Shown here piece by piece: positions 18,047 through 44,219 of a stretch of 64,000 nucleotides of DNA. The position numbers and the translations under genes are program-made. Positions within the stretch are counted from its first letter, which is position 1; every line of letters starts with the position of its first letter. The stretch lies in contig NZ_OX365700.1 of the NCBI RefSeq assembly GCF_947241125.1, positions 3,628,001-3,692,000 of the forward strand. The letters run 5' to 3'. This DNA is from Nitrospira tepida. Lineage in GTDB: Bacteria; Nitrospirota; Nitrospiria; Nitrospirales; Nitrospiraceae. Under the pieces are notes generated by a model. It saw only the letters and a program-made list of their open reading frames with translations. It ran no database searches and was not told where the DNA came from.

Positions 18047-18070
18047 TGCTGTTCATTGAGCGGAGGGAGA

Positions 18071-19075
18071 ATGCCCGAACTACGTCGTGATCCGATCGTC
18101 GGCCGGTGGGTGATCATTTCGACCGAGCGCGGCGTGCGGCCGCGCGACTTCATCATCACCCCGCCGCCCCAGACCTCGCCGGTGTCGTTGTGTCCCTTTT
18201 GCCCGGGGCAGGAATTGCTGACCCCGAAGGAGATCCTGGCCTATCGCCCGCAGGGCAGCGAGCCCAACAGTCCGGGATGGAGCGTCCGCGTCGTGCCGAA
18301 CAAGTTTCCGGCGCTCCACGTGGAAGGCGAACTGGGGCGCGAGGGACTCGGCATGTACGATCGCATGAACGGCGTCGGCGCGCATGAGGTCATCATCGAG
18401 ACGCCTCGCCATCAGGAGACGTTGGCGGAGATGCCCGTCAAGCAGATCGAAGACCTCTTGTGGACCTACCGAGACCGGCTGCTCGACCTGAAGAAGGACC
18501 CGCGGTTTCGCTATATCCTGATTTTCAAGAATCGCGGCGCCGCGGCGGGGGCTACGTTGGAGCACACCCATTCACAATTGATCGCGTTGCCGGTCGTCCC
18601 CACGGCCGCCGAGCAGGAGATGGAGGGCTGCCGCCAACATTACGAAGACAAGGAACGCTGTTTGTATTGCGACATCGTGCGGCAGGAGCTGGCCGACGGC
18701 GCTCGCATCGTGGCGGAGAATCCCGAGTTCGTCACGCTCACGCCCTACGCGCCGCGCTTCCCCTTCGAAATGTGGATCTTGCCCAAACGCCACGCGGCCT
18801 ACTATGAGGAGAGCCAGAAGGCGCAGTTCGAGTTCATGGCGCCGATCCTCTCCGAAACGCTGCGGCGGATGGATCGCGTGCTCGCCCGCCCCGCCTACAA
18901 TATGATGCTGCACACCTCGCCGCTCCACGAGAGCAGCGGTCCCTTCTACCATTGGCACGTGGAGATCATCCCGAAGCTGACCCAGGTGGCGGGATTCGAG
19001 TGGGGCACCGGCTTCTACATCAACCCCGTTTCGCCGGAGGAGTCGGCGAAGTTTCTGCGCGAAGCCGAGCTGTAG
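18071..19075 (+). CDS. galT: Galactose-1-phosphate uridylyltransferase
   Basis: The 334-aa protein has the zinc site CPFC at residues 41-44, the active-site histidine triad in LEHTHSQLIALP near residue 163, and HWHVEIIPKL near residue 294, all diagnostic of the GalT/HIT superfamily. It exchanges UMP between UDP-glucose and galactose-1-phosphate (Leloir pathway), or serves as a related hexose-1-phosphate nucleotidyltransferase. The ATG at 18071 follows GGAGG at 4 nt; an in-frame TTG at 18056 is less likely. Its neighbour is an alpha-glucan enzyme, which suggests sugar-phosphate traffic. Confidence 0.88.
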   Translation: MPELRRDPIVGRWVIISTERGVRPRDFIITPPPQTSPVSLCPFCPGQELLTPKEILAYRPQGSEPNSPGWSVRVVPNKFPALHVEGELGREGLGMYDRMNGVGAHEVIIETPRHQETLAEMPVKQIEDLLWTYRDRLLDLKKDPRFRYILIFKNRGAAAGATLEHTHSQLIALPVVPTAAEQEMEGCRQHYEDKERCLYCDIVRQELADGARIVAENPEFVTLTPYAPRFPFEMWILPKRHAAYYEESQKAQFEFMAPILSETLRRMDRVLARPAYNMMLHTSPLHESSGPFYHWHVEIIPKLTQVAGFEWGTGFYINPVSPEESAKFLREAEL

Positions 19076-19118: not shown

Positions 19119-19322
19119 ATGAAAGTCCATCTCAGCCATCCCGAAAGACAGATCGAGATCAAGGGGCCCAAGCGCGTCCAGGACCTGCTCCGGGATCTCA
19201 ATCTGCTCGTCGAAGCCCATCTTGTGATCCGCGGCAGCGACCTCATGACCGAAGACGAGGTCGTCGCCGACGGCGACAGTATCGAAATCCGCCCCGTGAT
19301 CTCGGGCGGAAGCCGCACGTAG
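19119..19322 (+). CDS. ThiS/MoaD-like sulfur-carrier protein
   Basis: The 67-aa protein has the small ubiquitin-like pattern ending VVADGDSIEIRPVISGG, as in ThiS, MoaD and TtuB. Such proteins carry sulfur as a C-terminal thiocarboxylate on Gly-Gly. Here three residues (Ser-Arg-Thr) follow the Gly-Gly, so the tail would have to be removed or the protein works differently. A TtuA-type tRNA thiolase is encoded at 43281, and TtuB-type carriers serve that enzyme, so a TtuB role is possible. A second 5'-truncated copy ending exactly at Gly-Gly lies at 21484-21616. Confidence 0.75.
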   Translation: MKVHLSHPERQIEIKGPKRVQDLLRDLNLLVEAHLVIRGSDLMTEDEVVADGDSIEIRPVISGGSRT

Positions 19323-19420
19323 CTGAAGTCTCCGGCAAGCCTTGCTCAACAATCGGGCAGAGGCCCACCGCTTGGTTCCGACCCTCTTTCTTGAAACTTC
19401 TTCGCAGTCCTTTTACCTTG

Positions 19421-20776
19421 TCAGGCGTACACTCCCGGCTTGTAGAAGCGGTCATAGAAGGTGTGATCTAGATGATGGGCCTGATAGGCCAGCACCGTTC
19501 GGAATGGACCACTATAAGCGGGGAATCGTCCATACCGGCTGTAGACATAGTCGCAGTAGGCAATCGTCGCCTCGATGGCCCGGTCCGAATAGCCCGGAAT
19601 GCCCTGTTGCACGCTCGCCCCATCCTGCCAGGCGCTCGTTGCGCCCCCATCGCGCAATGTCCCTCGGCCTGCCCCATACTTGTACTCCACGAAGGCGCGC
19701 ACCGCTTCTGCCATCGTTCGGTAATAGGGCGGGCAATAGGGCTTGAGCAGCGCCTGGCCGTTTCGCTCCAGCCCCACCCCCGTCGGGACAGGCAGGTCAT
19801 CATGGAGCATACGCAAGAGCCCCGTCCTCAACCAGCCGGCGCCGATCGTCCGCGAGAAGGGGATCTCCTCCATGCGAAAGTCCAATGCTTGGAACCAAGC
19901 GAACGGATGCGCGGCAAAATGGGAAAATCCGCCCAGGCCCAGCGCTTGAGCCATCAGCCCAAGGTTCTGCAGCATCCCTCCCTGCTCAATGGCGGCAAAC
20001 TCGTACAGCCAAGTTTCCAGACTGGTGATAGTCGCGACACGGCCTTGCTCAGGATCATCGGACAGATGGCCGCCCTTGCTCCCGGCAAATCGCGCCAGGC
20101 CGGCAGGCTGGAAACGATGTCGATCATCAACGACGAAATATCCGAAGTCCTCGCTGAAGGCCGAGAGGAGGATGTTGATGTAGAGAGCCGTCACGTCGTT
20201 GACCGGGAGAAAATAGGTGGTGCCGGGCCGATTCGCGGACCACTTGTTGAACGGCGGCACATAGGGCAGGGTCCGAGGCACGTCCGGCCGCCGGTCGCTG
20301 ATCCGCACTCGATGTCGTTCGTAGAGTTCGACCAATTGATGGTTCCGTCCGGCTTGAATCAGCTCAGGCAGGGCCTGGCGAGGATAATCCTGAGGACGTT
20401 TGAGCATCCAGGCGCCCTCGTCGTTCAACACGAACAACACCACGGCATGGGCCGCATCGCCGCTCGCCACGGGGCGACCGACGAAATGAATCAAGATATT
20501 CCCCCCTCCGGACTCCAGGACAGCCCCATCTTGATAAGGGAGATCAGCAAGCCCGTACCCCGTGATGCCGCACGCGGCAAACGCCAGCGCGGCTTCCTCT
20601 TCCACCTGTAAGGGCTGGGGCGGCAGGGCGCTCTGATAGGCCAGGGGTCCGCCGTTCAGATGCATCCCCCTGCCAAAACGTCGAGAGCGGCGCTCAATAA
20701 GGGCGTCCAGCAGCGGATAGGTTGCCGCCCGCTCCAGCGGGGATTGAGTGGCGAACGTCATAGAACTTCTCTCCAT
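19421..20776 (-). CDS. Nitroreductase-like hypothetical protein
   Basis: The protein is about 451 aa from the Met at 20776 (446 aa from the next Met at 20761; both have purine-rich ribosome sites; a longer frame opens at 20824). I do not recognise it as a named enzyme. ALIERRSRRFG near the start and MLQNLGLMAQALGLGGFSHF near residue 270 resemble the FMN-binding N-terminus and the core helix of nitroreductase-fold proteins. Other parts (KPYCPPYYRTM, YKYGAGRGTLRDGGA) are unfamiliar. There is no signal peptide. The gene stands alone on the minus strand between two ThiS-like reading frames. Confidence 0.5.
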   Translation of the reverse strand: MERSSMTFATQSPLERAATYPLLDALIERRSRRFGRGMHLNGGPLAYQSALPPQPLQVEEEAALAFAACGITGYGLADLPYQDGAVLESGGGNILIHFVGRPVASGDAAHAVVLFVLNDEGAWMLKRPQDYPRQALPELIQAGRNHQLVELYERHRVRISDRRPDVPRTLPYVPPFNKWSANRPGTTYFLPVNDVTALYINILLSAFSEDFGYFVVDDRHRFQPAGLARFAGSKGGHLSDDPEQGRVATITSLETWLYEFAAIEQGGMLQNLGLMAQALGLGGFSHFAAHPFAWFQALDFRMEEIPFSRTIGAGWLRTGLLRMLHDDLPVPTGVGLERNGQALLKPYCPPYYRTMAEAVRAFVEYKYGAGRGTLRDGGATSAWQDGASVQQGIPGYSDRAIEATIAYCDYVYSRYGRFPAYSGPFRTVLAYQAHHLDHTFYDRFYKPGVYA

Positions 20777-20824
20777 CTGGCTCTTCTCCCCTTCCGTTCG
20801 ATCTCGCAACCTACCGACAACCAT

Positions 20825-21483
20825 TCATCTGAACATTTACTCTCAATGATCAGTACGAGCGAGCGCCTAGTTTGGATCTCTCGCTCAGTCGCACGACGTC
20901 GCGGCAGACTTTGCCCCTCCTCCCCTCCCTACTCCCAAAAGAAACAGACCGATCGACCGGCATGCCCTGTGAACAAACGTCCAAGAACTGAACCAGGACG
21001 TAGATAGTGATGAAAGCCGAGAAGGTTTTGCCATTCCTCAAGGCAGGCGCGTCACCAAACTGAGCTGGGAGATTGTCCGTGATGAATCGCTGTATAGAAG
21101 AAACGAGCTTTGTGCAAATTTGTGGCGCTGGAGGAAGCAGAGTCGTTAGAAGATTGATGAATGCCACCAGGCAATCGTTTGGAGAAACTGACGGGAAGCC
21201 GCCACGGTCAAATGAGCATTCGGGTCAACGACTACAGTCCTTCGGTTATCCAGATACTTTGGGACGACAGATCGACTCTGGGTGAACATGCAAGCGAAGT
21301 ATGACCTGGAGGTCGAGAAGGATCGGTTGGAGACCGGGTTGAGAGAGAAGTCCCCGTCCTCGCCCGTGCGAGTTAGGTTGCAGCGAGGGAACGCACCAGG
21401 CCCCGCACAATCATTGCCGACATTGAACTATGTCTTTCTGCGCGAGGCGTCAATTCGCCGACACCGGGACGACATCATGCTCA
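20825..21483. other. Gene-poor stretch upstream of the nitroreductase-like gene
   Basis: About 660 bp without a convincing gene. A 105-codon minus-strand frame (20850-21167) and short plus-strand frames exist, but none shows a recognisable motif, and base composition is lower in GC than the neighbours. The region looks like decayed sequence next to the truncated ThiS-like copy. Confidence 0.5.
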
Positions 21484-21616
21484 GGACCTGCCGCGTGACC
21501 TCAACCTGCTCGCCGAAGTTCATCTGGTGATCGGAGAAAACGGCCGCATGACCGAATACGAGGTCGTGGCCGACGGCGATAGCATCGAGATTCGCCCCGT
21601 GATCTCCGGCGGCTAG
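21484..21616 (+). pseudogene. 5'-truncated second copy of the ThiS-like carrier gene
   Basis: In the frame ending with TAG at 21616 the translation reads QDLPRDLNLLAEVHLVIGEN and then MTEYEVVADGDSIEIRPVISGG, colinear with the protein at 19119-19322. Most base differences between the two copies are synonymous, so this copy was under selection until recently. Upstream of the QDL block the similarity fades and no good in-frame start is seen. Unlike the intact copy it ends precisely at Gly-Gly, the functional C-terminus of sulfur carriers. Confidence 0.7.
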
Positions 21617-21774: not shown

Positions 21775-23206
21775 TTATGGCTCGCTCTCCCTCTCGCGCA
21801 GCCGCTCGAAGGCCATGGCAATCTGAACCTGGGTCTCCTGAGGCAACTGCGCCACGGCGACTTCTTTGCCTGATGTGGTGATGACCGAGAGCGACGAGGG
21901 TTCCCCCATGCCGGCGGCGACAACGAGCTGCTCGACCGGTTCCCCATCAATGAACGGCAGCAGGGCCGCGACCTGAGTATAGCCGACACACGCAGTGAGC
22001 ACATTGGTCTTGCCAGGCTTCAAATTGACACGGGCCGAGGCGGTGGAACTTGCAAAGGTGCCGGTGCTCGGCGTACTCAAGAAGGGGACCATCGGCTCGC
22101 CTTCGGGCAGCACCCGGATGGTAAAGATCGTGCCGACCGGAATGTTGGTCGCGGTGAGCGTGACCGTCACCGGATTCATGGTCGCAGCGGGGAGCGTGAG
22201 ATCGGCCGTCGCATAGGCGCCGGTCGGGCTTGCCGGCGCCGTCAGGCCGCCGACTGTGTTAATAGTCAGCGTGGGGAGGGTGGTAAGGGCCGGGGTGCCG
22301 GCGGCGGAGACAGGACCCAGTGTATTCGTGACGGACGCGGCGGGATTGATGGTGCCCGGGGTACTGCAGGTCGTACATTCCACCCGGATCCGCCCCGGAA
22401 TCCCGACGTGATACGGCGTACAGCTCGCAGTGCCCCCGAGGGCTTCCACCAGCCCTTGGTGCGTGAGCTGCGGCGCCACCAATCGGATGGCCCCGCCACT
22501 CCCCGCGCCGCCCGTGTACCGATCACAACTGCCACTGTAGCTGTAATTGCCCGCCCCGCCGTTGGCCCGGAGCATCCCCCAGGGAAATCGTAATTTGAGT
22601 GGTCGAGGCGATGACAATCGCGCCCCCGCCGCCGGCCCCGCCCGCGCCCCAGATCGTGGTATCGCCCGCCCCGCCACCCCCGCCGGATCCGCCGAATAAC
22701 GGGATGAGGCTCACAAACGTCGCGGCCGCGCCGTAGAACCCATCGCCGGTGGTCACGCTCCACCATTGGCCGCCGTTCCCGCCGCCCGGCCCCCGCCCCG
22801 CGGTCCCGTCCCGGGTCCCACGCCGCGCACGCCCCCTGGCCACCCGCGAACCCGCCCGGTCCCCGGGGCTGCTGCCGGCGATCGGTGTCGAGCCGCTGCC
22901 GGTGGCCGGCGCGGCATTCGTGCCGCTCACGTTGATCGTGCCCGCAATGGTGACATCCCCCTGCGCCAGCAGGGTGACCGGCGTATTGGCGCTGTTGGGC
23001 TGAAAGGTGACGGTAACCCCTGCGGGAATATTCACCGTCGTATAGTTCAAGATGCCGTCCGCCGGGAGCACCACGGTGGTATTGGACGCGGGGTTGAACG
23101 CGCCAAGCGCCCCGGTACTGCCACTGCTGAAGGTCTGGCCGAGAGCCGGGACCGTCCAGAAAATCGTCAACAGGAGTCCAACCCCGTGTCGCCAGTTCAG
23201 CCCCAT
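21775..23206 (-). pseudogene. Glycine-rich exported protein A (frameshifted)
   Basis: Starting at MGLNWRHGVGLLLTIFW (a signal peptide ending near ALGQ), the frame encodes a beta-rich repeat region (TTVVLPADGILNYTTVNIPAG, VTLLAQGDVTIAGTINVSG) and a Gly-rich segment (LFGGSGGGGGAG, GAGGGGAIVIASTTQ). The reading frame then breaks at a G5 run (C5 at 22576-22580), and the continuation (ANGGAG...GGAIRLVAP) lies in another frame up to 21775. In the Gly-rich part (about 22800-22880) the paralogue-like peptide GGPGGFAGGQGA is found in yet another frame. It could be a decayed surface protein, a phase-variable one, or a sequencing artefact at G/C runs. It follows paralogue B by 53 bp. Confidence 0.6.
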
Positions 23207-23259
23207 CGTCAGCCCTCCCCTCTTCGTTGAATCCTCCCTGATCAAGTCATCCTGTGCCA

Positions 23260-24500
23260 TCACGGCATCACAAAATTGCTGTAGACGTTCAGCACACTCG
23301 TCTGCCCGGCGGGGAGCGTGAGCGAGGCCGAGGCGGTCGAGCTGGCAAAGGTTCCGGTAGAATTGGCCGTGACCGAGGTGGCCGTCGTGAACGGGGCCAG
23401 CACCACGAACGTGAACGTGCTGGGGACCGGCGTGTTGGTCGCCTCAATCGTCACCGTCACGGGATTGGTGGTGCCCGGCGGCATCGTCACATCGGCGGTC
23501 GTATACGTGCCTCCGGGCACGGAGGGGGTGCTCACCCCGCCGATGGTGCTGATGCGCAAGGTCGGCAAACTGGTGAGCGCCGGCACGCTCGAGGCCGTCA
23601 CCGGCCCCGGCGTCGCGGCGATCGAGGCCGCGGGATTCGTCGCGTAGATGGCACCCAACGTGAAGGCTTCAATGCGAACCCGGCCCGGCCCGCCGCCGGT
23701 CGGACAGCCGGGGGTGCCGCCCAGGGCTTGAATCGTCCCGAGGTTGGTGACTAAGGGCGCGACCAGGCGAATCGCCCCGCCACTCCCGGCCCCGCCGGCT
23801 CGCCAGTCGCAGGCCACCCGGTAGCCGGCCCCGCCATTGGCGTTGATCACGCCGGTCGATTGCACGGTGATTTTGGTGGTGGAGGCGATCACGATGGCCC
23901 CGCCGCCGCCGGCGCCCGCCGCGGTCGAGGGATAGCTGGCAGTGCGCCCGCCGCCGCCCCCCGCCGGATCCGCCAAAGAGCGGCAGCAGACTCACGAAAT
24001 CCGCCGGCGCGCCGTAGGTCGCATCCGTCGTCGTTGTGTACCATGGATTAAAGATGCCTGGAGCGCCACCCCCGGCCCCCCTGCCCCGCCGCCCCATTAT
24101 TGTTCGAGGTCGATTTGGTCCCGCCCTGCCCACCGGCAAAGCCGCCTGGTCCGCCGAGCGAGGGCGGGCTGGGATTGTCGCCGGAGTAGGGCACCGCATC
24201 GTCGCCTTTGACGCTGATCGTGCCGGCAATACTCACATCCCCTTGGGCCAAGAGCGTCACGGGCGTGTTCGCGGCATTGCGTTGAAACGTGACGGTGACG
24301 CCGGCCGGAATCGTCACCGTCGTGTAGTGCAAGATCCCGTCGGCCGGGAGCACCACAGTGGTATTCGAGGCCGGGGCCAAGGCCCCGAGGCTGCCGGTAC
24401 TGCCACTGCTAAACTGCGCCGCCGGGGCCGGATCCATCGGGCCAGCGGTCAGGATCGCGAGAAGAACCGGGATGACCTTACGAAGACACGACCAGTTCAT
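23260..24500 (-). pseudogene. Glycine-rich exported protein B (frameshifted)
   Basis: This is a paralogue of protein A with the same plan: signal peptide (MNWSCLRKVIPVLLAILTAG), FSSGSTGSLGALAPASNTT, repeats VTLLAQGDVSIAGTISVKG, a Gly-rich region, GAIVIASTTKITVQSTGVIN, GGAGSGGAIRLVAP and a Thr/Val-rich C-terminus ending YSNFVMP. Reading requires three frames; the shifts fall in C/G runs near 24068-24100 and near 23956-23966. The gene lies 25 bp after the TIG-domain protein and 53 bp before protein A, so the three look like one operon. The repeats suggest a beta-helix cell-surface protein. The function is unknown. Confidence 0.6.
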
Positions 24501-24525
24501 AGACAACTCCTCTGTGTTCACATCG

Positions 24526-25467
24526 TTAGGGCATCGCTGCACTGACGGGCGGCCCAACGGTCATACTGCGCCCGGTGGGCGCACTGGTACTCGGCACATC
24601 GGGATAGACCATCCAGTCACTGGTCGGGGGCGCGACCGTCATCGCGCGCCCGGAGGGCGCGGCGGTGGCGGAGACCGACGGAAAGGGCATCGCCACGCTC
24701 ACATGGCTCCGGGTGAGGGCGAAGGATGGTGCCGGCGCCGCGATGCTGATCGTCACGGAGCCGCTGTTGGCGGTGCCCTCCGGCGTGGTGACCGTAAAGG
24801 CGTAGGTCCCCGGCGGCACGGTCGAGGCGACCACCAGCTTCACCGGCAAGGATGTGGCCGTGACCCCCGTCAGAATCGTGGCCGAGAGGCCCGCTTGCGT
24901 AAACGTCACTGCCGTCGCGTTCGAGAGCTGCGTCCCGGCGATGGTCAGCGTGCGTTGGGTTCCTTGTGCGACGCTGCTCGGCGTGACACTCGTGATGGTC
25001 GGCGCCCCAAGGACGGTGAACGCCTGCGGGCTATTCGCGCTCCCGTTCGTATTCGTGACGCTGACGGTCCCCGTTGTGGCACTGGCCGGGACTGTCACGA
25101 TAATGGCGTAGGCTGTCGAGGATACGACCGTCGCGTTCGTGCCGTTGAAGATCACCATGTTGTTGCTCGGCGTCGGATCAAAGCCATAGCCCTGAATCTT
25201 GACTTGCGCACCGACCGCGCCTTTCCCTGGCAGCAAGGTATAGATGCCGATTCCACTTGCACCCGGCGTAAAGCGATCGCTGCCGAGCAGGTTGCCGACG
25301 GCGTCATAGTTGTAGATGGCAGTGTTGCCCGCTTCGTCGACGACAGTGGTGAGCCTGCCGAGGTCGTCGTAGGCATATTGGGCCTCACCCGCCCGGACAA
25401 CTGAAAAAATGTTCGTGAGAACCGCAAATATCAAAATGCTCCCCATTCCTCGAATGATTCGCTTCAT
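24526..25467 (-). CDS. Exported mini-RHS protein with IPT/TIG domains
   Basis: The 313-aa protein has a signal peptide (MKRIIRGMGSILIFAVLTN...VVRA) and then two RHS/YD repeats (YAYDDLGRLTTVVD, YNYDAVGNLLGSD). Two IPT/TIG-like immunoglobulin-type domains follow at residues ~75-155 and ~158-240 (IQGYGFDP..., PTITSVTPSSVAQGT...). The C-terminal tail has the repeated pieces PSGRAMTVAPP and PTGRSMTVGPP. The RHS head is almost the same as that of the 803-aa RHS protein at 26537-28948, showing a shared export-plus-repeat head with different bodies. It heads an apparent operon with the two Gly-rich proteins. Likely located at the cell surface; the role is unknown. Confidence 0.75.
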   Translation of the reverse strand: MKRIIRGMGSILIFAVLTNIFSVVRAGEAQYAYDDLGRLTTVVDEAGNTAIYNYDAVGNLLGSDRFTPGASGIGIYTLLPGKGAVGAQVKIQGYGFDPTPSNNMVIFNGTNATVVSSTAYAIIVTVPASATTGTVSVTNTNGSANSPQAFTVLGAPTITSVTPSSVAQGTQRTLTIAGTQLSNATAVTFTQAGLSATILTGVTATSLPVKLVVASTVPPGTYAFTVTTPEGTANSGSVTISIAAPAPSFALTRSHVSVAMPFPSVSATAAPSGRAMTVAPPTSDWMVYPDVPSTSAPTGRSMTVGPPVSAAMP

Positions 25468-25637
25468 CAGCTTGCCTTGTGCTAAAGCCGTGTGTTCTCG
25501 AAATTATTTGTGAAAGACCGTAGCTTCGAAGTGCTCAATGCTTCTTCCCTACTGTCTTCCTGGGTGGCCAGAATTTGGTTTAGAATTATTGTGTTGACCT
25601 CTTCGCCCCTACGGTCTCGCCGCAATCCAGTCCAAAA

Positions 25638-25994
25638 CTAACGCCCATCCTTCTTGCCATGTCTCTTCTCTTTTCGTGAAGCGATCGACTCGTTGCTTTT
25701 TCCGCGAATCGCTCTGGCCGTTGTTCTCTCCACCTTTTCAAACGTCTCATAGATGGACTGGTCATCGTCCCAGGTATGCATCTGACCGTCTTGTTGGCGC
25801 AGCCAGACTATGCCTTTTGTACCCTGCAGCACAGCCCAAGTCTCTCCCTTGCGACAGATGATACCTGTTGGCTGACCTGACTGATCTGTAACCTCGATAT
25901 TTTTCCTTAATTTGACCGAATCGCCAGCTCGCAGACCACACCGATACCGCTTGACAGGATATTTGCTGACAAATCGAATTTTCTCACTAGTCAT
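25638..25994 (-). CDS. Small hypothetical protein, possible immunity gene
   Basis: From the Met at 25994 the protein is 118 aa (MTSEKIRFVSKYPVKRYRCG...); an upstream in-frame start at 26069 would add 25 Cys-containing residues. It has a strand-rich middle (DQSGQPTGIICRKGETWAVLQ, GIVWLRQQDGQMHTWDD) that could be a small SH3-like barrel, and a charged Lys/Arg C-terminus. I do not recognise the family. It lies in the small-gene zone after the 803-aa RHS gene and its close partner, has lower GC, and may be a leftover immunity or regulatory gene. Confidence 0.5.
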   Translation of the reverse strand: MTSEKIRFVSKYPVKRYRCGLRAGDSVKLRKNIEVTDQSGQPTGIICRKGETWAVLQGTKGIVWLRQQDGQMHTWDDDQSIYETFEKVERTTARAIRGKSNESIASRKEKRHGKKDGR

Positions 25995-26287
25995 GTCAGT
26001 CTGCTCCGTGGTGCTGATCCTTCGAGTCTCATTGGGGCACGAGGAAACGCAATCCGTCGGGCAACTCATTCTTTCTTCGGCTCAGGTCGATCGTATCGAG
26101 GTCAAGATCACCTGCTTCAGCAGGATCAACGAGCTCGAACAGTAGGCCAAGTGCAATCCCGCCAATCTTCCCTGCCTCCGTAGCAAACTTTAGCCATTGT
26201 TTGTACGCCTTGCTCTCCTTGAGGTTCCTTTTATCTGCTGCAGCATCGTTGCCTCACCACTTTACGTGGGTGCACAGATGGGAGAAC

Positions 26288-26527
26288 CTATATGTCTTCA
26301 CGTATAAGCTTCTTTGAACGCGCATCGAAACCCTCGAGATTGGCCTCGTCATAAATGCTGACAGTAATCTCCTTCCTATAATCTTCACTCATAACATGAG
26401 CATGATGTTCCTGCGGATTTGCAAGAAGCCGATCCAAATCATTTCTCAGCTCTCTTGCCTCATCAGCTGTGAGATAAATCGTCACGCTGTCGAGCTTACG
26501 GTCTCCTCTCTGGTCAAGTAGTCTCAT
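26288..26527 (-). CDS. Candidate immunity protein of the 803-aa RHS
   Basis: The 79-aa acidic protein (LDSVTIYLTADEARELRNDLDRLLANPQEHHAHVMSED...) starts 9 bp after the RHS stop codon on the same strand. That position, the small size and the low GC are those of immunity genes in RHS loci. Its pattern of one helix flanked by strands (TIYLTADEARELRNDLDRLL, EITVSIYDEANL) recurs in small proteins found beside polymorphic toxins, but I cannot name the family. The immunity role is inferred from position. Confidence 0.6.
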   Translation of the reverse strand: MRLLDQRGDRKLDSVTIYLTADEARELRNDLDRLLANPQEHHAHVMSEDYRKEITVSIYDEANLEGFDARSKKLIREDI

Positions 26528-26536
26528 AAGCCCTCT

Positions 26537-28948
26537 CTATCGACGTGGTACACCGCCAGGGTAGATAGGCCCTGATTTAACCCAGTCACCATTGATCTTT
26601 TCATCCATATGTACATGAGGACTCTCATGTGGATGCGTCTTATTAATGTGGAATTGCATTCGTTTAGTGCCATCCTCTGATAAGAATATTTTGTCTCCGT
26701 GCTGGTTCGTGATGACCCGTGGATTCTTACCCAAGAAATCTTCAGCCCTCTTTACCGCATCGTTGATTCTATCTGCAGATTTAGCCGCTCTAACGCCTAA
26801 GCCAAGCCCTGTCACACCTGGCGTCAAAGCTCCAGCGACATCTGCACCGAGGGCGAAAATGTTCTCTTCGCGGTTTTTTCGCCCATCGATTGCCAACTGG
26901 AATAAATCGTACGCAATAAATGAGAGATCAACATATGTGTCCGGGGTCAACAGTTGAATTGCTTCACCTCTCGGATCAATGCGATTCATAGGATTATTCG
27001 AAACGTACGTATAGAAGTTGGGATCACCTCCACGAAAACCAATCGGATCCTCACCCATGAACCTCTGAAATCCAGGATGGTAATACCGCGACCGATAGTA
27101 GGAGAGCCCAGTCCCATCATCCTCCCGCCCCGTGTACTGAAAGCTGTTGGTCGATGCACCGGTCTTGGTGGTCTTGCCGAACGGCTCATAGGTGTATGTG
27201 GTCTGCGCCGTCCCCGTTCCGTCGGTGAGGGCCAGCGTGCTGCCCAATACATCCGTTTGATAGAACTCATCCCCACCAGATTGCTTCCGGATAAACGGCT
27301 CATCGATGCTCAAGCTTCTGATGTAAGTGGCGGATGGCGTGGTACCAGCGAGCTCTGCTAACACGTCGGCTCCGTCGTACCAGAATCCAGTCGTCGCACT
27401 ATTGATTGTCTTGCTGGTTCTGCGTCCCAATCCGTCATACACGAAGCTCGCGGAGAGACTGGGCCCGCTGATCGCCGTGAGTCGATTGCGGGCATCCCAG
27501 GTATAGGTTTTCGTCCCATCGTTGGTAAGATTTCCATTGGCATCGAAGGTCTGTGTCACGCCATTAAACTGCGTTTGCTGGTTCGCAACATCGTAGCTGT
27601 TGGAAGACACAGCTATTGGGATGAGTGAGGCCGCCGCGTTGGCCCGGGTCAGCTTGATCCGATTGCCCGCCGCATCGTTTTGATAAGTCAATGCTTCAAT
27701 CGTGGTCGGCGTCTTGATGTGATCAATGCTGAGTAGCCGATTGGCGTTGTCGTAGCCGTAGCTCGTCACCACGCCGTTCGGATAGGTGAGTGACGTTCTT
27801 CTACCGGCATCGTCGTAGGCCAAGGTGACGGTCTGGGAACCTTGGGTGACGGTCTTGAGCCGTGAATTCTTATCGTACGTGTACGTGACATCCGTCTGAC
27901 CGGTGGCGCTCAATTTGAGCCGTCGGCCGATTTCATCGTATTCCACCGTCACCGTGCCGGGCGTCGTGGCTTCTTGCACCCGGGGATGATGCCCGTTGCT
28001 CACCGTGTCATACGTCCAGGTGATATTGCCGCCGACGGAATCGCTGACACTGGTGAGCCGTCCGATCGCATCGTAGCCAAAGGCCACGGAACTATCCGGA
28101 TAGGTGGCCCCCGTCCGGCGGTTCAAGGCATCGTAGGTGAACGTCGCTTGCTGACTCTTGCGATCCGTGAACGTGGTCAGATTGCCGTTCTTGTCATAGA
28201 CATAACTTTCCGTCCGGCTCAGCGCATCGGTCCGGGTCTTCAAGCGGTCCATCTCGTCATAGGTATAGGCCGTCGTCTGATTCTTCGCATCCGTCACAGT
28301 GAGCAGATTGCCATTGTAGTCGTAGGTGAACCGCGTGAGACCACCCATCGCATCTTGAATGGCGGTAACCCGGTTCACGTCATCGTAGCTGAAGCGGGTG
28401 AGGGCTCCCCGGGGATCGACGAGATGGGGCAGCCGCGACACCGTGTCATAGTACCGCGTCGTGACATTCCCCAGCGCATCGGTGGTCGTCGCGAGGTTGC
28501 CCACCGCGTCATAGCCGAAGCTCGTCACGTGCGTCAGCGGATCGGTGATGCTGGTCGGCTGGCCGGCCGTGTTGTATTGGATGACCGTCTGCTTATTCTC
28601 CGGATCCGTGATCGTGGTCGTCCTAGCCGTATCGTTATAGCTAAACGTCGTCACATTGGCCGGCGAGAGGGCATCCGTGATCGTGGCGAGGCGGTTATAG
28701 GTCGCTTCATAGGTGAACGTCGTGGTGTTGTTCTCAGGATCTTTAATGGTCGACACGTTCCCCATGCCGTCGTACGTAAACTCCGTCCGACGGGAGAGCG
28801 GATCCACCACGGCGGTGAGCTGGCCGAGGTCGTCGTAGGCGTAGTGGGCCTCGCTGCAATAAGACGAGTCTGTGGGTAAGATAATCCAAGCCATAGCAAA
28901 GACTGGCAGCCACCAGAGTTTAATCATATTCATATTCTTCGAGTTCAT
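26537..28948 (-). CDS. Exported RHS-repeat protein with C-terminal toxin-like tip (803 aa)
   Basis: The protein has a signal peptide (MIKLWWLPVFAMAWIILP...), about 20 RHS/YD repeats (YAYDDLGQLTAVVD, FTYDGMGN, YNTAGQPTSITDP and others) and the RHS core end FYTYVSNNPMNRIDPRGEA near residue 659. The last ~140 residues are unlike other copies: a shared linker (SFIAYDLFQLAIDGRKN...ALTPGVTGLGLGVRAAK), then a His-rich tip (ITNQHGDKIFLSEDG, QFHINKTHPHESPHVHMDE) that may be a nuclease or RNase domain. The family of the tip is not identified. The N-terminal ~660 residues nearly repeat the core of the 1393-aa RHS. A likely immunity gene follows. Confidence 0.85.
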   Translation of the reverse strand: MNSKNMNMIKLWWLPVFAMAWIILPTDSSYCSEAHYAYDDLGQLTAVVDPLSRRTEFTYDGMGNVSTIKDPENNTTTFTYEATYNRLATITDALSPANVTTFSYNDTARTTTITDPENKQTVIQYNTAGQPTSITDPLTHVTSFGYDAVGNLATTTDALGNVTTRYYDTVSRLPHLVDPRGALTRFSYDDVNRVTAIQDAMGGLTRFTYDYNGNLLTVTDAKNQTTAYTYDEMDRLKTRTDALSRTESYVYDKNGNLTTFTDRKSQQATFTYDALNRRTGATYPDSSVAFGYDAIGRLTSVSDSVGGNITWTYDTVSNGHHPRVQEATTPGTVTVEYDEIGRRLKLSATGQTDVTYTYDKNSRLKTVTQGSQTVTLAYDDAGRRTSLTYPNGVVTSYGYDNANRLLSIDHIKTPTTIEALTYQNDAAGNRIKLTRANAAASLIPIAVSSNSYDVANQQTQFNGVTQTFDANGNLTNDGTKTYTWDARNRLTAISGPSLSASFVYDGLGRRTSKTINSATTGFWYDGADVLAELAGTTPSATYIRSLSIDEPFIRKQSGGDEFYQTDVLGSTLALTDGTGTAQTTYTYEPFGKTTKTGASTNSFQYTGREDDGTGLSYYRSRYYHPGFQRFMGEDPIGFRGGDPNFYTYVSNNPMNRIDPRGEAIQLLTPDTYVDLSFIAYDLFQLAIDGRKNREENIFALGADVAGALTPGVTGLGLGVRAAKSADRINDAVKRAEDFLGKNPRVITNQHGDKIFLSEDGTKRMQFHINKTHPHESPHVHMDEKINGDWVKSGPIYPGGVPRR

Positions 28949-28956
28949 ATGATTTG

Positions 28957-29382
28957 CTATTCACCACGTATAACAATAAGTACTTCTCCGTCTCTCGCAT
29001 CAATGAGAACAGTCGCGCCTCCCCCTTTTGGTCTTCGACCTTCAATACGCTTAGGGAGATAAAAAATAGTCCAAAAGGTTCGGCCTTGCAGTTTGGCTTG
29101 GTGCTGCTTGTATTGCTCGCGCGATTCAGCTACTCCACTGTCCCTTAGAATTGACATGAACTCATCCCACCGCACGTTGCCCTTATCCACTTCCATATCA
29201 AGGTCCTGTGGGTCTAATCCCAACTTGTCGACCTCTTTGTTTGCGATCTTGATAGCTTGCTCCTTATTGACTCCGACGCAGCTCTCTGGGTCAGCATCAT
29301 AGGCCAACATCCTGACGGTGAGCAGACACGCCAGGGCGTGGGTCTGTGCAAACGTTCGTGGGATGTTCACGAATCTCTCCAT
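28957..29382 (-). CDS. Small protein, possible immunity gene (PepSY/NTF2-like pattern)
   Basis: The 141-aa protein contains NKEQAIKIANKEVDKLGLDPQDLD and ends FWTIFYLPKRIEGRRPKGGG then TVLIDARDGEVLIVIRGE. This pattern of helix, strand and a final GG-x-x-V-x-IDxxxGEV strand is seen in PepSY-like domains and in NTF2-fold immunity proteins of polymorphic toxin systems. It lies between the PH-like gene and the 803-aa RHS with gaps of 14 and 8 bp. No toxin directly upstream matches it, so it may be an immunity gene left by a lost tip. The family call is tentative. Confidence 0.5.
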   Translation of the reverse strand: MERFVNIPRTFAQTHALACLLTVRMLAYDADPESCVGVNKEQAIKIANKEVDKLGLDPQDLDMEVDKGNVRWDEFMSILRDSGVAESREQYKQHQAKLQGRTFWTIFYLPKRIEGRRPKGGGATVLIDARDGEVLIVIRGE

Positions 29383-29396
29383 CGAAACCTCTAACG

Positions 29397-29858
29397 CTAA
29401 GATGAGATTCGACCACTTTCATCTTTCCTCTTATTCCTGGTAGCGAAATTCTTTAGAACATTCCAAATGCCAAAGAACGGAGGTCCTTCCTCAATGTCCA
29501 ATGTCACGTCACCGAAATCCAACGTGCGAATGAGCAGACGACACATCTTTTGTTTATTTACCTCTCCAAATTGGGATGGCGAGACACTCAGGATAGCTGA
29601 AGATGGAATTGACTTAAGGTCCTCACGCTCGCACCAAATGACCCTATCTGTTGTGATCAGTAGCCAGTCATTCGCACTGCGAAAACTGCCAATCACTGGC
29701 ACTTCCTGATGAGTTAGACTAACCTTCTGTAAGATCACTTGCTGTTGCATGCCTTGCATTTGACTAAAAATCAGTGTGTATCTACCGATTCCGCCTTTCC
29801 GTTCAAATATGGATTTTAGTGATTTGGATCTGGATTCTTTTGTCATAACTGACCTCAC
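29397..29858 (-). CDS. Candidate immunity protein with PH-like domain
   Basis: The 153-aa protein overlaps the stop of the RHS tip at 29855 by four bases (GTGA); a Met at 29846 is the alternative start. Its middle, WLLITTDRVIWCEREDLKSI then SAILSVSPSQFGEVNK, ending in a helix (GIWNVLKNFA), looks like a bacterial pleckstrin-homology (YokE/bPH-like) domain. Such domains occur in immunity proteins. Its coupling to the tip ORF makes it the likely immunity partner of that tip. GC is low relative to the chromosome, as for the other small genes here. Confidence 0.6.
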   Translation of the reverse strand: MRSVMTKESRSKSLKSIFERKGGIGRYTLIFSQMQGMQQQVILQKVSLTHQEVPVIGSFRSANDWLLITTDRVIWCEREDLKSIPSSAILSVSPSQFGEVNKQKMCRLLIRTLDFGDVTLDIEEGPPFFGIWNVLKNFATRNKRKDESGRISS

Positions 29859-31345
29859 GGCAAGAAGGCTCTTAAGAGAATTATGTCAGCATTGATGTGA
29901 GTTAATTCGAAGCCAAGGCGCCGCGCTGCGGCCCCGCTCAAATTCGCAAGACTTTGGTTCACTATTGCACTCCCAGTGATACTTATCTGTGAAGCGCCTG
30001 TTGCGGCCGCTTCTGCTCTGAGCGCAGCAGATAGTGCCCGCAGGCCTTGCGCTCCTTCGGTTGCCCATAATCCTATTACATTTATATTGTAGGTATTCCC
30101 AACCAGTCCGGCGTTACCCCAAATCTCATAGCCAGCTACACTTCTGACTGCCCCGGTTGCTTGTGTGGCATCTGCAAGAGGGACCAAGGCCCTACTGGCC
30201 TCTGATATGGCGCCTATTCCGCGGAGAGAGTTTATTGCCGGCCCGAGGCCGCATAAAAGTCCGGCGGCAGCTCCTTTGCCACCTCCTCGGAGTGCAGCGC
30301 TGGCGGCACCGTATAGAACCTTTCTTCCACTAAGAACGTTGTCATAAATTTGCAATCCAAGGTCGAGGCCTGCTCCGAATAGAGTGGACCCAACTACACA
30401 TGCGACCGTGAAGTTACCGCTCGGATCAGTCGCGTTGATCGGATTATTTTGGACATACGCATATAGATTAGGGTCTCCACCCGAAAAACCTACTTGATCC
30501 TCCTGGATAAAGCGCTGCAATTGCGGTTGATAATATCGAGCCCTGTAGTACAGAGTCCCAGTGCCATCTTCCTCTCGCCCCGTATACTGAAACGAATTTG
30601 TTGACGCGCCATTCCTGGTGGTCTTACCAAACGGTTCTTGCGTGTAGGTCGTGCCGGATGTCCCGCTACCATCAGTCAAAGCTAGCGTACTTCCCAACGC
30701 ATCGGTCTGATAATACTCATCCCCGCTGGATTGTTTTCGAATAAATGGTTCGTCGATGGAAAGACTTCTGATATACGTGGCGGTTGGAGTACTTCCACTC
30801 AACTCGGCTAGGACGTCACCTCCGTCATACCAAAAGCCCGTTGTGCTGCTGTTGATGGTCTTGCTGGTCCTGCGTCCAAGTCCGTCGTACACGAAACTGG
30901 CGGAAAGACTTGGTCCACTGATGGCCGTCAACTGGTTCCGCGCATTCCAGGTGTAGGTCGTCGTGCCGGAGGCATCCGTGAACGACGTCAGATTGCCGTT
31001 ATTGTCGTAGACGAGGTTTGTCGAGGCGCTGTTAAAGCGCGTCTGTTCGTTGGCCGCATCGAAGGCGGTATTCGTCACTGCTTGGGGGATGAGTGACGCT
31101 GCCGCATTCGCGCGCGTGAGCTTGATGCGATTCCCCGCCGCATCGTTCTGGTACGTCAGCGCTTCGATGGTCGTCGGTGTCTTGACGTGGTTAATGCTGA
31201 GCAGTCGATTGGCGTTGTCATACCCGTAGCTGGTCACCACCCCATTCGGATAGGTCAGACCGGTTCGGCGTCCCGCATCGTCATAGGTCAAGGTCACGGT
31301 CTGCGTGCCTTGGGTCACGGTCTTGAGCCGGGAGTTCTTACTCAT
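29855..31345 (-). CDS. Orphan RHS tip with unidentified C-terminal domain (496 aa)
   Basis: The frame enters RHS core sequence at KNSRLKTVTQGTQTVTL with no signal peptide and runs through the core to YAYVQNNPINATDPSGN near residue 310. The C-terminal ~185 residues hold a Gly/Ala-rich hydrophobic stretch (GAASAALRGGGKGAAAGLLC), then a soluble tip (YEIWGNAGLVGNTYNINVIG, LSGAAARRLGFELTHI) that I do not recognise. It starts 48 bp after the stop of the preceding small gene, and its stop overlaps the next small gene (GTGA). It is a truncated head with an intact tip, so it is likely a donor or an accessory cassette rather than a complete secreted protein. Confidence 0.75.
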   Translation of the reverse strand: MSKNSRLKTVTQGTQTVTLTYDDAGRRTGLTYPNGVVTSYGYDNANRLLSINHVKTPTTIEALTYQNDAAGNRIKLTRANAAASLIPQAVTNTAFDAANEQTRFNSASTNLVYDNNGNLTSFTDASGTTTYTWNARNQLTAISGPSLSASFVYDGLGRRTSKTINSSTTGFWYDGGDVLAELSGSTPTATYIRSLSIDEPFIRKQSSGDEYYQTDALGSTLALTDGSGTSGTTYTQEPFGKTTRNGASTNSFQYTGREEDGTGTLYYRARYYQPQLQRFIQEDQVGFSGGDPNLYAYVQNNPINATDPSGNFTVACVVGSTLFGAGLDLGLQIYDNVLSGRKVLYGAASAALRGGGKGAAAGLLCGLGPAINSLRGIGAISEASRALVPLADATQATGAVRSVAGYEIWGNAGLVGNTYNINVIGLWATEGAQGLRALSAALRAEAAATGASQISITGSAIVNQSLANLSGAAARRLGFELTHINADIILLRAFLP

Positions 31346-31393
31346 ATCGATCCTTGTGCCGAGCGTTCGTTCGGATTACATCAATCTATTTCT

Positions 31394-31720
31394 TCATCCC
31401 TTACTGATTTCAGATTGAATGAGGGATTCGATGTTGTTTATTGCCTCACCAACGAGATTCCTTCCAATCTCGTCTAGATGGGTCTCGTCATGGTCCAGTA
31501 GCATGGCGTACACCTCTTCAAGGGTTGCCCATCTAGGATCAAACTGCTTTACGAACCACTCTGATTTCACAGCCAGACTCGATCGTAAAGCATCAAGATC
31601 TGCAATGACTTTCCGAAGGTCTTCAAGGTTGTTGTTTTGCATAACCTCTTTGTAACCGTTAATTGCTTGGAGCATCCGCTTGAACTGGCGTAGGTCATAT
31701 TCCTTGTCATGCTCATTCAC
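31394..31720 (-). CDS. Candidate immunity protein of the DUF4258-type RHS tip
   Basis: The 108-aa protein is acidic and almost entirely helical (LRQFKRMLQAINGYKEVMQN, LEDLRKVIADLDALRSSLA). It starts with GTG, overlapping the stop of the RHS tip gene by four bases, which implies translational coupling. Position, size and low GC mark it as the immunity partner of the DUF4258-like toxin tip. No database family is recognised. Confidence 0.6.
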   Translation of the reverse strand: MNEHDKEYDLRQFKRMLQAINGYKEVMQNNNLEDLRKVIADLDALRSSLAVKSEWFVKQFDPRWATLEEVYAMLLDHDETHLDEIGRNLVGEAINNIESLIQSEISKG

Positions 31721-43280: not shown

Positions 43281-44219
43281 ATGAAATGCGCGAAGTGCAA
43301 GACCAAAGCCGTCATCGGACTGCCGCGGCATAATGCCGCCTTCTGCAAGCCCTGCTTTATCGGTTATGCCCATGAGCAGGTGGCCCGCGCGATCAAACAC
43401 GAGCGGATGTTCGGCCCAGACGACCGTATCCTCGTGGCGGTGTCGGGGGGCAAGGACAGTCTGGCCCTCTGGCACATGCTCCTTGCGATGGGCTACCGGG
43501 CGGACGCGCTCTATGTCGATCTCGGCATTCCTGGCTATTCGACCCGCTCGCGGGAAAAGGTCGAGGGCTACCATCAGACACATGCGGCCTCTCTGGGCGC
43601 CAAGCTCCTCATCCACCAAACCCAGGAAGAAGAAGGTGCCGGAATCCGCGAGTTGTCCCAGTTGATCAACCGTCCGACCTGCTCGACCTGCGGGACGATC
43701 AAACGTTATCAATTCAACCGGGCCGCGGTGGAGCACGACTACGATGTCATGGCGACCGGCCATAACCTCGACGACGAAGCCGCCCGGCTGCTCGGCAACG
43801 TCTTGCACTGGCAGGAGGAGTATCTGGACAAACAAGGCCCGACGCTTCCCGCGTCGGTCGAAGGGTTTGCCAAGAAGGTGAAGCCGCTGTACCGGTTGAC
43901 CGAGCGCGAGGTGGCTGCCTATGCCCTGCTCAACGGGATTGACTACGTGGTGGAAGAATGTCCGATGGCCAAGGGCTCCAAGATGCTCCTTTATAAAGAG
44001 GTCCTCAACCGGTTGGAGACCGAATCCCCAGGCACCAAGCAATCCTTCTATTGGAAATTCCTCGAACGGCAAGCCAAGCTCCAGCCGAGCGGCCTGTTCA
44101 TGACAGAGAAAGATCAGGCCACCCTGCATCCCTGCCCGACCTGCGGCCAACCTACCACGGCCGAAACCTGTTCCTACTGCAAGATGATGGCCCGCGCCAA
44201 GGCCGCCGCGCCTCGCTGA
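43281..44219 (+). CDS. ttuA: tRNA 2-thiolation enzyme, TtuA family
   Basis: The 312-aa protein has an N-terminal zinc ribbon (Cys3, Cys6, Cys22, Cys25), the PP-loop SGGKDS at residues 55-60, the Fe-S-binding Cys134 and Cys137 (CSTCG) and Cys227 (ECPMA), and a C-terminal zinc ribbon (CPTCGQ...CSYC). This is the layout of TtuA/Ncs6 rather than TtcA. It activates tRNA uridine with ATP and inserts sulfur delivered by a ubiquitin-like carrier (TtuB), giving 2-thiouridine or 5-methyl-2-thiouridine. A ThiS-like carrier gene lies at 19119 in the same window. It begins 132 bp beyond the divergent membrane-protein remnant. Confidence 0.85.
   Translation: MKCAKCKTKAVIGLPRHNAAFCKPCFIGYAHEQVARAIKHERMFGPDDRILVAVSGGKDSLALWHMLLAMGYRADALYVDLGIPGYSTRSREKVEGYHQTHAASLGAKLLIHQTQEEEGAGIRELSQLINRPTCSTCGTIKRYQFNRAAVEHDYDVMATGHNLDDEAARLLGNVLHWQEEYLDKQGPTLPASVEGFAKKVKPLYRLTEREVAAYALLNGIDYVVEECPMAKGSKMLLYKEVLNRLETESPGTKQSFYWKFLERQAKLQPSGLFMTEKDQATLHPCPTCGQPTTAETCSYCKMMARAKAAAPR

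Follow-up and report, generated by a model that had tools for sequence, protein, structure and literature searches.

A TtuB-type sulfur carrier of Nitrospira tepida with a freely varying tail after Gly-Gly: a putative pro-protein for JAMM processing

In the sulfur carriers QbsE and HcyS, Gly-Gly is followed by one or two further residues, which are trimmed by a JAMM-type protease (QbsD and HcyD, respectively); each carrier forms a dedicated, side-by-side pair with its protease, and the tail is fixed. In Thermus thermophilus, TtuB and TtuA act in the thiolation of tRNA (s2T54). The chemistry of the family is adenylation and thiocarboxylation of the terminal glycine (PMC3980101, PMC6225789), and when the Thermus JAMM was deleted, TtuB conjugates became aberrant and thiouridine fell to roughly half (PMC3980101). 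DRJAMM of Deinococcus radiodurans cuts a MoaD-MoaE fusion and exposes its C-terminal Gly, and the JAMM of Pyrococcus recognises SAMP2 irrespective of what is attached to its Gly (PMC8832034). An analysis from 2006 had proposed that JAB proteins perhaps free the C-terminus of ThiS or of MoaD fusions (PMC1779556). Here, we describe a carrier gene of this type (positions 19119–19322) in a stretch of 64,000 nucleotides from Nitrospira tepida (contig NZ_OX365700.1, 3,628,001–3,692,000; hereafter, the window), which encodes three further residues after its Gly-Gly. On balance we favour, with moderate confidence, the interpretation that this intact gene encodes the pro-form of a TtuB-type carrier that feeds TtuA and is matured by a JAMM protease encoded in a gene cluster elsewhere in the genome. 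Coordinates with the prefix C1 refer to the genome that holds the window (G000), a single contig of 4.73 Mb.

The intact frame is translated into a 67-residue protein of the ThiS/MoaD type with the C-terminus ...RPVISGGSRT, which agrees with the initial annotation of this DNA. Its core of 64 codons runs to Ile-Ser-Gly-Gly (19119–19310, forward strand) and is followed by the tail Ser-Arg-Thr and a stop codon (19311–19322, forward strand), at which place orthologues have tails of 0 to 37 residues. The ATG at 19119 was taken as the start, as orthologues align from that methionine and not upstream of it. The core matched Pfam ThiS with 26.6 bits (cut-off 22.5), and its best match among solved structures was Thermus TtuB (5ztb, E = 2.1e-07), the chain of which ends ISGG, followed by SAMP2 of 5lda (E = 2.4e-06); both align with the carrier as far as Gly-Gly. 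Judged by sequence and profile searches, from which its nearest relatives were identified, the carrier is a TtuB-type sulfur donor, and its predicted function is to carry a thiocarboxylate for tRNA 2-thiolation. We file it as a TtuB-type pro-carrier and not as plain TtuB: it has the beta-grasp ThiS/MoaD sequence with TtuB as the nearest solved relative, but its encoded end is Gly-Gly-Ser-Arg-Thr, such that a free C-terminal Gly-Gly would arise only with processing. Identity as the canonical thiamine ThiS was rejected (TIGR01683, 12.8 bits relative to a cut-off of 37.45), and a distinct ThiS-type gene lies elsewhere in the genome (C1:3228495).

The partner enzyme that the initial annotation placed in the same window was found at 43281–44219 (forward strand). 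This gene encodes a TtuA-type tRNA 2-thiouridine synthetase with CxxC zinc fingers and an SGGKDS PP-loop, in which both the N-terminal LIM/zinc finger (TtuA_LIM_N, PF22082, 37.9 bits, cut-off 27) and the PP-loop ATPase domain (ATP_bind_3, PF01171, 43.6 bits, cut-off 27) were recognised. The system thus resembles that of T. thermophilus in carrier sequence, ISGG, TtuA partner and E1-type activator, and in Thermus a JAMM is known to affect TtuB (PMC3980101). It differs in that the solved Thermus chain ends at Gly-Gly, whereas a variable tail follows in N. tepida and many of its relatives, and in that the thiolated position in N. tepida is a predicted one. Similarly, DRJAMM frees a Gly-Gly carrier from a longer chain (PMC8832034) and a MoaD-MoaE fusion is also present in N. 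tepida; in the TtuB-type carrier, however, the addition after Gly-Gly is a short tail that drifts rather than a domain. The SAMP2 and JAMM of Pyrococcus furiosus, to which the carrier is related through its 5lda match, are archaeal, and the available part of PMC8832034 mentions no drifting tails.

Of 61 relatives, 54 had a carrier match, as did 150 of the 175 genomes of the family. Tails were counted over 133 distinct nucleotide sequences from 167 loci, N. tepida included; locus L060 was left out of the tail readings because its carrier is cut by a contig end. The core through Ser-Gly-Gly was present in all 167 readings, while what follows it was not conserved: 75 of the 133 distinct genes stop immediately after Gly-Gly and the other 58 continue for 1–37 residues with no common sequence, the long tails resembling translated spacer DNA. 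The ratio of non-synonymous to synonymous substitution rates (dN/dS) in the core was 0.071 for tailed genes (215 pairs) and 0.065 for untailed genes (264 pairs), calculated for pairs that were 78–95% identical. Three groups of tails could be aligned, and in these the ratio of non-synonymous to synonymous differences (pN/pS) was 0.36, 0.61 and 0.91, compared to 0.09–0.16 in the cores of the same genes. Mapped on a TtuA tree of 100 rows, a quick tree with many weak forks, the presence of a tail changed at least 24 times. These sequence comparisons indicate purifying selection of equal strength on the cores of tailed and untailed genes, and relaxed selection on the tails. The tail of G011 (L008/L062) also begins Ser-Arg-Thr, in other codons (TCA AGA ACG relative to AGC CGC ACG in N. 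tepida), which may reflect chance or a constraint at the amino acid level. In 'Ca. Nitrospira defluvii' the tail of the carrier is SV.

Because a Gly-Gly carrier is under full selection and yet has so variable an end, the sequences argue that the tail must be lost or that the free end is not needed. The second option is unlikely since the family chemistry adenylates and thiocarboxylates the terminal glycine (PMC3980101, PMC6225789). It would mean that the tail stays on, that the N. tepida carrier is inactive or has no need of a free Gly-Gly, and that TtuA uses free sulfide or another carrier. The separation of the N. tepida carrier gene from ttuA fits this account, as does the statement that, in organisms lacking a TtuB homologue, TtuA-type enzymes may work with free sulfide (PMC6225789); set against it are the purifying selection on tailed cores, as strong as that on untailed ones, and the Ser-Gly-Gly found in every reading, and we consider it improbable. 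A freely varying tail is more probably one that is cut off by a protease. This argument about the tail, as distinct from the identity of the protease, is well supported, and of the three options that the initial annotation proposed, processing of the intact carrier by a peptidase is the one that best fits the comparative data, with cleavage itself predicted from sequence.

The link between carrier and TtuA, also suggested at the outset, held in the match to Thermus TtuB and in gene order: ttuA lies downstream of the carrier in 100 of 133 distinct loci, at a distance of no more than 264 bases in 97 of these. In N. tepida the two genes share the window but are ~24 kb apart, and between them lie a decayed carrier copy, a frame with weak nitroreductase matches and RHS-repeat genes. 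The nearest row to N. tepida in the TtuA tree was G020 (support 95), the carrier and ttuA of which are 57 bases apart, and the split therefore looks specific to the N. tepida lineage.

Where ttuA is close, a tail might be kept for translation, with ribosomes reading through the spacer to couple the carrier to ttuA and the peptide, whether or not it is cut, arising as a by-product. Among 53 tailed genes with a mapped ttuA, 23 have a stop codon that overlaps or abuts the ttuA start (gap of -10, -4 or 0, with ttuA starts placed by motif), as such coupling would have it. However, the other 30 stop before ttuA, the N. tepida ttuA is 24 kb away, and an ATGA overlap arises by itself from an open frame when ttuA starts with ATGAA. 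Coupling is also no competitor of cleavage, since Gly-Gly must still be freed, and as the reason for the tails we give it a slim chance, slightly below that of a tail that stays on. In many relatives the spacer between carrier and ttuA is a hairpin of short degenerate repeats in which the repeated word is species-specific, and some carrier tails are translated from the beginning of such a repeat; eight spacers chosen by eye (L064, L102, L127, L149, L068, L063, L015 and L034) were folded, and seven gave z < -2 (best -7.0) and one -1.55.

The most likely candidate for the protease is a JAMM (Prok-JAB) protein encoded outside the window, at C1:2306044–2306391 (PF14464, 73.3 bits, cut-off 25). It carries H-S-H-x7-S-x2-D (HSHPHDPARPSVTD in the sequence) and an upstream Glu, which we take to be the HxHx7SxxD-plus-Glu metal-binding motif of JAMM/MPN+ proteases. 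It was the one Prok-JAB protein above the cut-off in this genome; weak Prok-JAB matches in frames of 240–300 residues were considered as possible second JAMMs, and the one in N. tepida was rejected as it is RadC. The gene belongs to a cluster (L185, ~C1:2305.9–2311.1 kb) with the order ThiS-like carrier, CysM-type synthase, E1, threonine-synthase-like protein, CysO/MoaD-like carrier, NIL-type protein, E1 and JAMM, the names CysM, NIL and threonine synthase being our presumption from the sequences. The order is identical in 'Ca. Nitrospira defluvii' (G029, L309). The cluster thus contains both strong E1 genes of N. tepida in addition to two further carriers: ThiF gave two matches above 250 bits, each of them in the cluster, while two weak matches were set aside (33.4 bits, above the cut-off of 28.1 but covering half of the model, and 23.5 bits). 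The same linkage was found in all 14 single-contig genomes examined (G000, G001, G029, G032, G041, G054, G063, G074, G079, G080, G092, G094, G129 and G153), in which the JAMM match lies less than 3 kb from two E1 matches above 250 bits; 12 of these genomes have exactly two such E1 matches, and G032 and G074 have three. As judged from this linkage, the E1s most likely to activate TtuB, ThiS and MoaD are those encoded with the JAMM. The third strong E1 of G032 stands with another ThiS-like carrier at C1:135223–137100, far from the main JAMM cluster, and this is possibly a partial second copy of the cluster.

By analogy with the Thermus, Deinococcus and Pyrococcus precedents, this JAMM would cleave the TtuB-type carrier after Gly-Gly. 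We propose a model that starts from what is seen by sequence, namely the distribution of tails, the constraint on the core, the order of the genes and the JAMM/E1 linkage. The carrier would be translated with a short tail, the peptide of which does no work itself, and the protease would cut after the second glycine. A MoeB/ThiF-type E1 would adenylate the freed glycine, sulfur would be loaded on the carrier as a thiocarboxylate, and TtuA would pass it to tRNA. Because the tail is removed in this model, its length and sequence could drift freely. Tail cleavage, the JAMM as the cutter, the acting E1 and the thiolated tRNA position are what we infer here. Unlike in the QbsE/QbsD and HcyS/HcyD pairs, the proposed Nitrospira protease is encoded away from the carrier and the tail is hypervariable.

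Extra residues after Gly-Gly were also found in other sulfur carriers. ThiS of N. tepida (L002, C1:3228495–3228692) ends FIGGG-SL, that is GGG-Ser-Leu, and was tailed in 40 of 40 relatives read (chosen from a longer list of second matches), with 1–25 variable residues after GGG. In the ThiS-like carrier of the JAMM cluster, GGG was followed by exactly one residue, which varied, in all 30 genomes read. For the CysO/MoaD-like carrier, a set of 30 rows from which L244 was dropped as misread, 29 ends were readable: 14 ended at Gly-Gly, 14 had one extra residue and one had five. MoaD is fused to MoaE in N. tepida (L310, C1:1973664–1974395), with Ala after the internal Gly-Gly. By a hand count over 57 genomes with a match, one match spanned MoaD and MoaE in 39 (N. 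tepida included; two with one internal stop), two separate matches were present in 14, and the MoaE end alone was present in four; in G029 the separate MoaD and MoaE matches lie in one open frame of 312 codons. Of the five Gly-Gly carriers of N. tepida, only the CysO-like one is encoded with a Gly-Gly end, and in a sixth ThiS-family match (C1:2939419) no Gly-Gly end was seen. We tentatively extend our interpretation, at somewhat less than even confidence, to most ubiquitin-like sulfur carriers of the order Nitrospirales: TtuB-type, ThiS, ThiS-like, CysO-like and MoaD carriers may be pro-proteins that bear drifting tails or fused domains, with one E1-linked JAMM as a common maturation gate for tRNA thiolation and for thiamine, molybdopterin and cysteine-type sulfur transfer. 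Taken one by one, the parts are known, and the combination of hypervariable tails across several carriers of one order with the JAMM/E1 tie seems new; a literature search returned no paper combining 'Nitrospira' and 'TtuA', and nothing on variable carrier tails appeared in the titles or starts of abstracts that were listed.

Several observations weigh against maturation by this JAMM. The JAMM gene does not adjoin the TtuB-type gene, and ttuA was not found within the 2.5 kb around the carrier that were searched in 33 of 133 distinct loci, N. tepida included, in some of which the contig or fetched stretch ends there. A Prok-JAB match (E ≤ 1e-8) was found in 154 of 175 family genomes (110 of 114 good genomes), leaving 21 without. 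Where the TtuB-type carrier of these was read, it is tailed in eight genomes (G008, G061, G090, G149, G172, G184, G196 and G197) and untailed in four (G007, G017, G125 and G126), and ThiS is tailed in three genomes with no JAMM (G017, 99% complete; G068, 94%; G007, 76%). Outside the family, G045 (tail V) is also without a JAMM, and its cluster lies 262 bases from a contig start. G172 (70% complete) has one E1, a CysO-like carrier and a tailed TtuB-type carrier, no JAMM match was found anywhere in it, and its cluster is interrupted inside a long contig: at C51:193600–196600 (L340) it is reduced to the E1, threonine-synthase-like, CysO-like and NIL genes, and lacks the ThiS-like carrier, most of CysM, the second E1 and the JAMM.

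Such genomes would be expected if ordinary housekeeping carboxypeptidases, or else tail-specific proteases, nibbled the tail away and came to a halt at the folded beta-grasp domain, in which case no JAMM would be needed for the carrier. Tails unrelated in length and sequence, tailed ThiS in the three drafts with no detected JAMM, and an E1 with a tailed carrier but no JAMM in G172 all fit this explanation. Assembly gaps, however, bear on much of this pattern. In six of the 21 JAMM-less genomes the cluster runs off the end of its contig before the JAMM is reached (G061, G090, G126, G149, G177 and G184), and in G008 the neighbouring carrier is 1 kb from a contig start; since contigs end in or near the cluster, the JAMM of these seven was probably lost in assembly. 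Six others also have no strong E1 (G007, G017, G068, G125, G196 and G197), for which reason the cluster may be missing from the drafts of G017, G068 and G007, the very three with tailed ThiS. The CysM stump of G172, read by eye, abuts other sequence, which together with 70% completeness makes deletions in that assembly possible. The remaining seven are G033, G116, G163, G173, G178, G188 and G190, and an additional JAMM search in G173 was also empty. Presence or absence of a JAMM thus gives no clean test against tails, since most of the JAMM-less drafts examined break in the cluster or lack E1. MoaD-MoaE fusions, in addition, require an internal cut that exopeptidases could not make, and nibbling would not predict a preferred residue at the first tail position. 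We therefore rate nibbling as unlikely, albeit as the most serious rival to maturation by the JAMM.

Among distinct TtuB-type tails, 46 of 58 had Ser, Ala or Thr (S/A/T) as their first residue, and among ThiS tails 30 of 40 did, compared to 90 of 363 and 70 of 302 later tail positions, respectively; Fisher P values for these counts are inflated, as the sequences are related. By parsimony on one quick tree, with events counted by hand, 21 of 32 inferred events led to S/A/T relative to 24.8% (P = 1.3e-6), and 16 of 27 did so when AGY-to-TCN serine switches were excluded (P = 1.5e-4). This enrichment is no more than suggestive. It is not seen in the carriers of the JAMM cluster, where the residue after Gly-Gly is mostly R, N or Q, and this difference, a further point against a single JAMM, might reflect two or more proteases.

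A second, degenerate copy of the carrier lies at 21482–21616 (forward strand). Aligned to the intact gene, it consists of codons 21–64 (21482–21613) and ends ISGG-TAG, with the stop codon (21614–21616) directly after Gly-Gly; that it ends in this way and lacks its 5' part had been correctly noted from the start. The two copies share 81% DNA identity over 146 bases (E = 6e-35), and the match is therefore not due to chance. By hand count, 20 of 44 codons were changed, 11 synonymously and nine non-synonymously, so the earlier description of the differences as largely synonymous was half right: all seven changes after codon 46 were synonymous, and nine of the 13 up to codon 46 were not. At the ends of the two copies, the alignment has a one-base gap at the stop codon (GGCGG-AAGCC relative to GGCGGCTAGCC), and a shift of one base there is enough to open a short tail. 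From its Gly-Gly-stop end, and from its last 18 codons, in which changes are synonymous only, one could argue that this fragment has a start that escaped notice and acts as the working carrier. We regard this as barely credible, and as a functional gene the fragment was rejected: the first 20 codons, the N-terminal third, are missing, the open frame upstream of 21527 has no ATG, GTG or TTG that would include the rest, the middle has nine non-synonymous changes, and relatives normally have one match. A single carrier match was found in all 53 other genomes with a match in the relatives set and in 145 of 149 in the family set, with two matches in the remaining four. No third copy of the carrier, with a Gly-Gly end or otherwise, was found in the single-contig genome, which has two matches at E ≤ 0.001 besides more distant ThiS-family genes; a complete copy elsewhere that might serve TtuA in place of the intact gene is thus not seen at this threshold. 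Among the carriers read, the fragment is closest to the intact copy (82% over 132 bases; next best 73%), and it is therefore probably a dead duplicate that decayed.

Directly upstream of the carrier, at 18056–19075 (forward strand), lies a gene for a GalT-like nucleotidyltransferase, a neighbour outside the proposed mechanism, whose cluster has members in 89 of 134 loci, the window included. Between the two carrier copies, a frame of ~450 residues on the reverse strand (19421–20824) has weak nitroreductase/SagB-type matches (13.4 and 16.4 bits, both under the cut-offs), and no conserved neighbour cluster lists it. Between the carrier and ttuA, an island at 22000–31500 holds RHS-repeat proteins (26537–28948 and 29855–31345, both reverse strand) and glycine-rich frames on the minus strand.

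Residues after Gly-Gly make a carrier look broken; here, the tail is a natural experiment, in which conservation that stops dead at Gly-Gly marks where processing is likely. Should a single JAMM serve all carriers, this would be a simple bacterial parallel to the processing of ubiquitin precursors, with that JAMM holding the place that processing deubiquitinases have for the ubiquitin precursors of eukaryotes.

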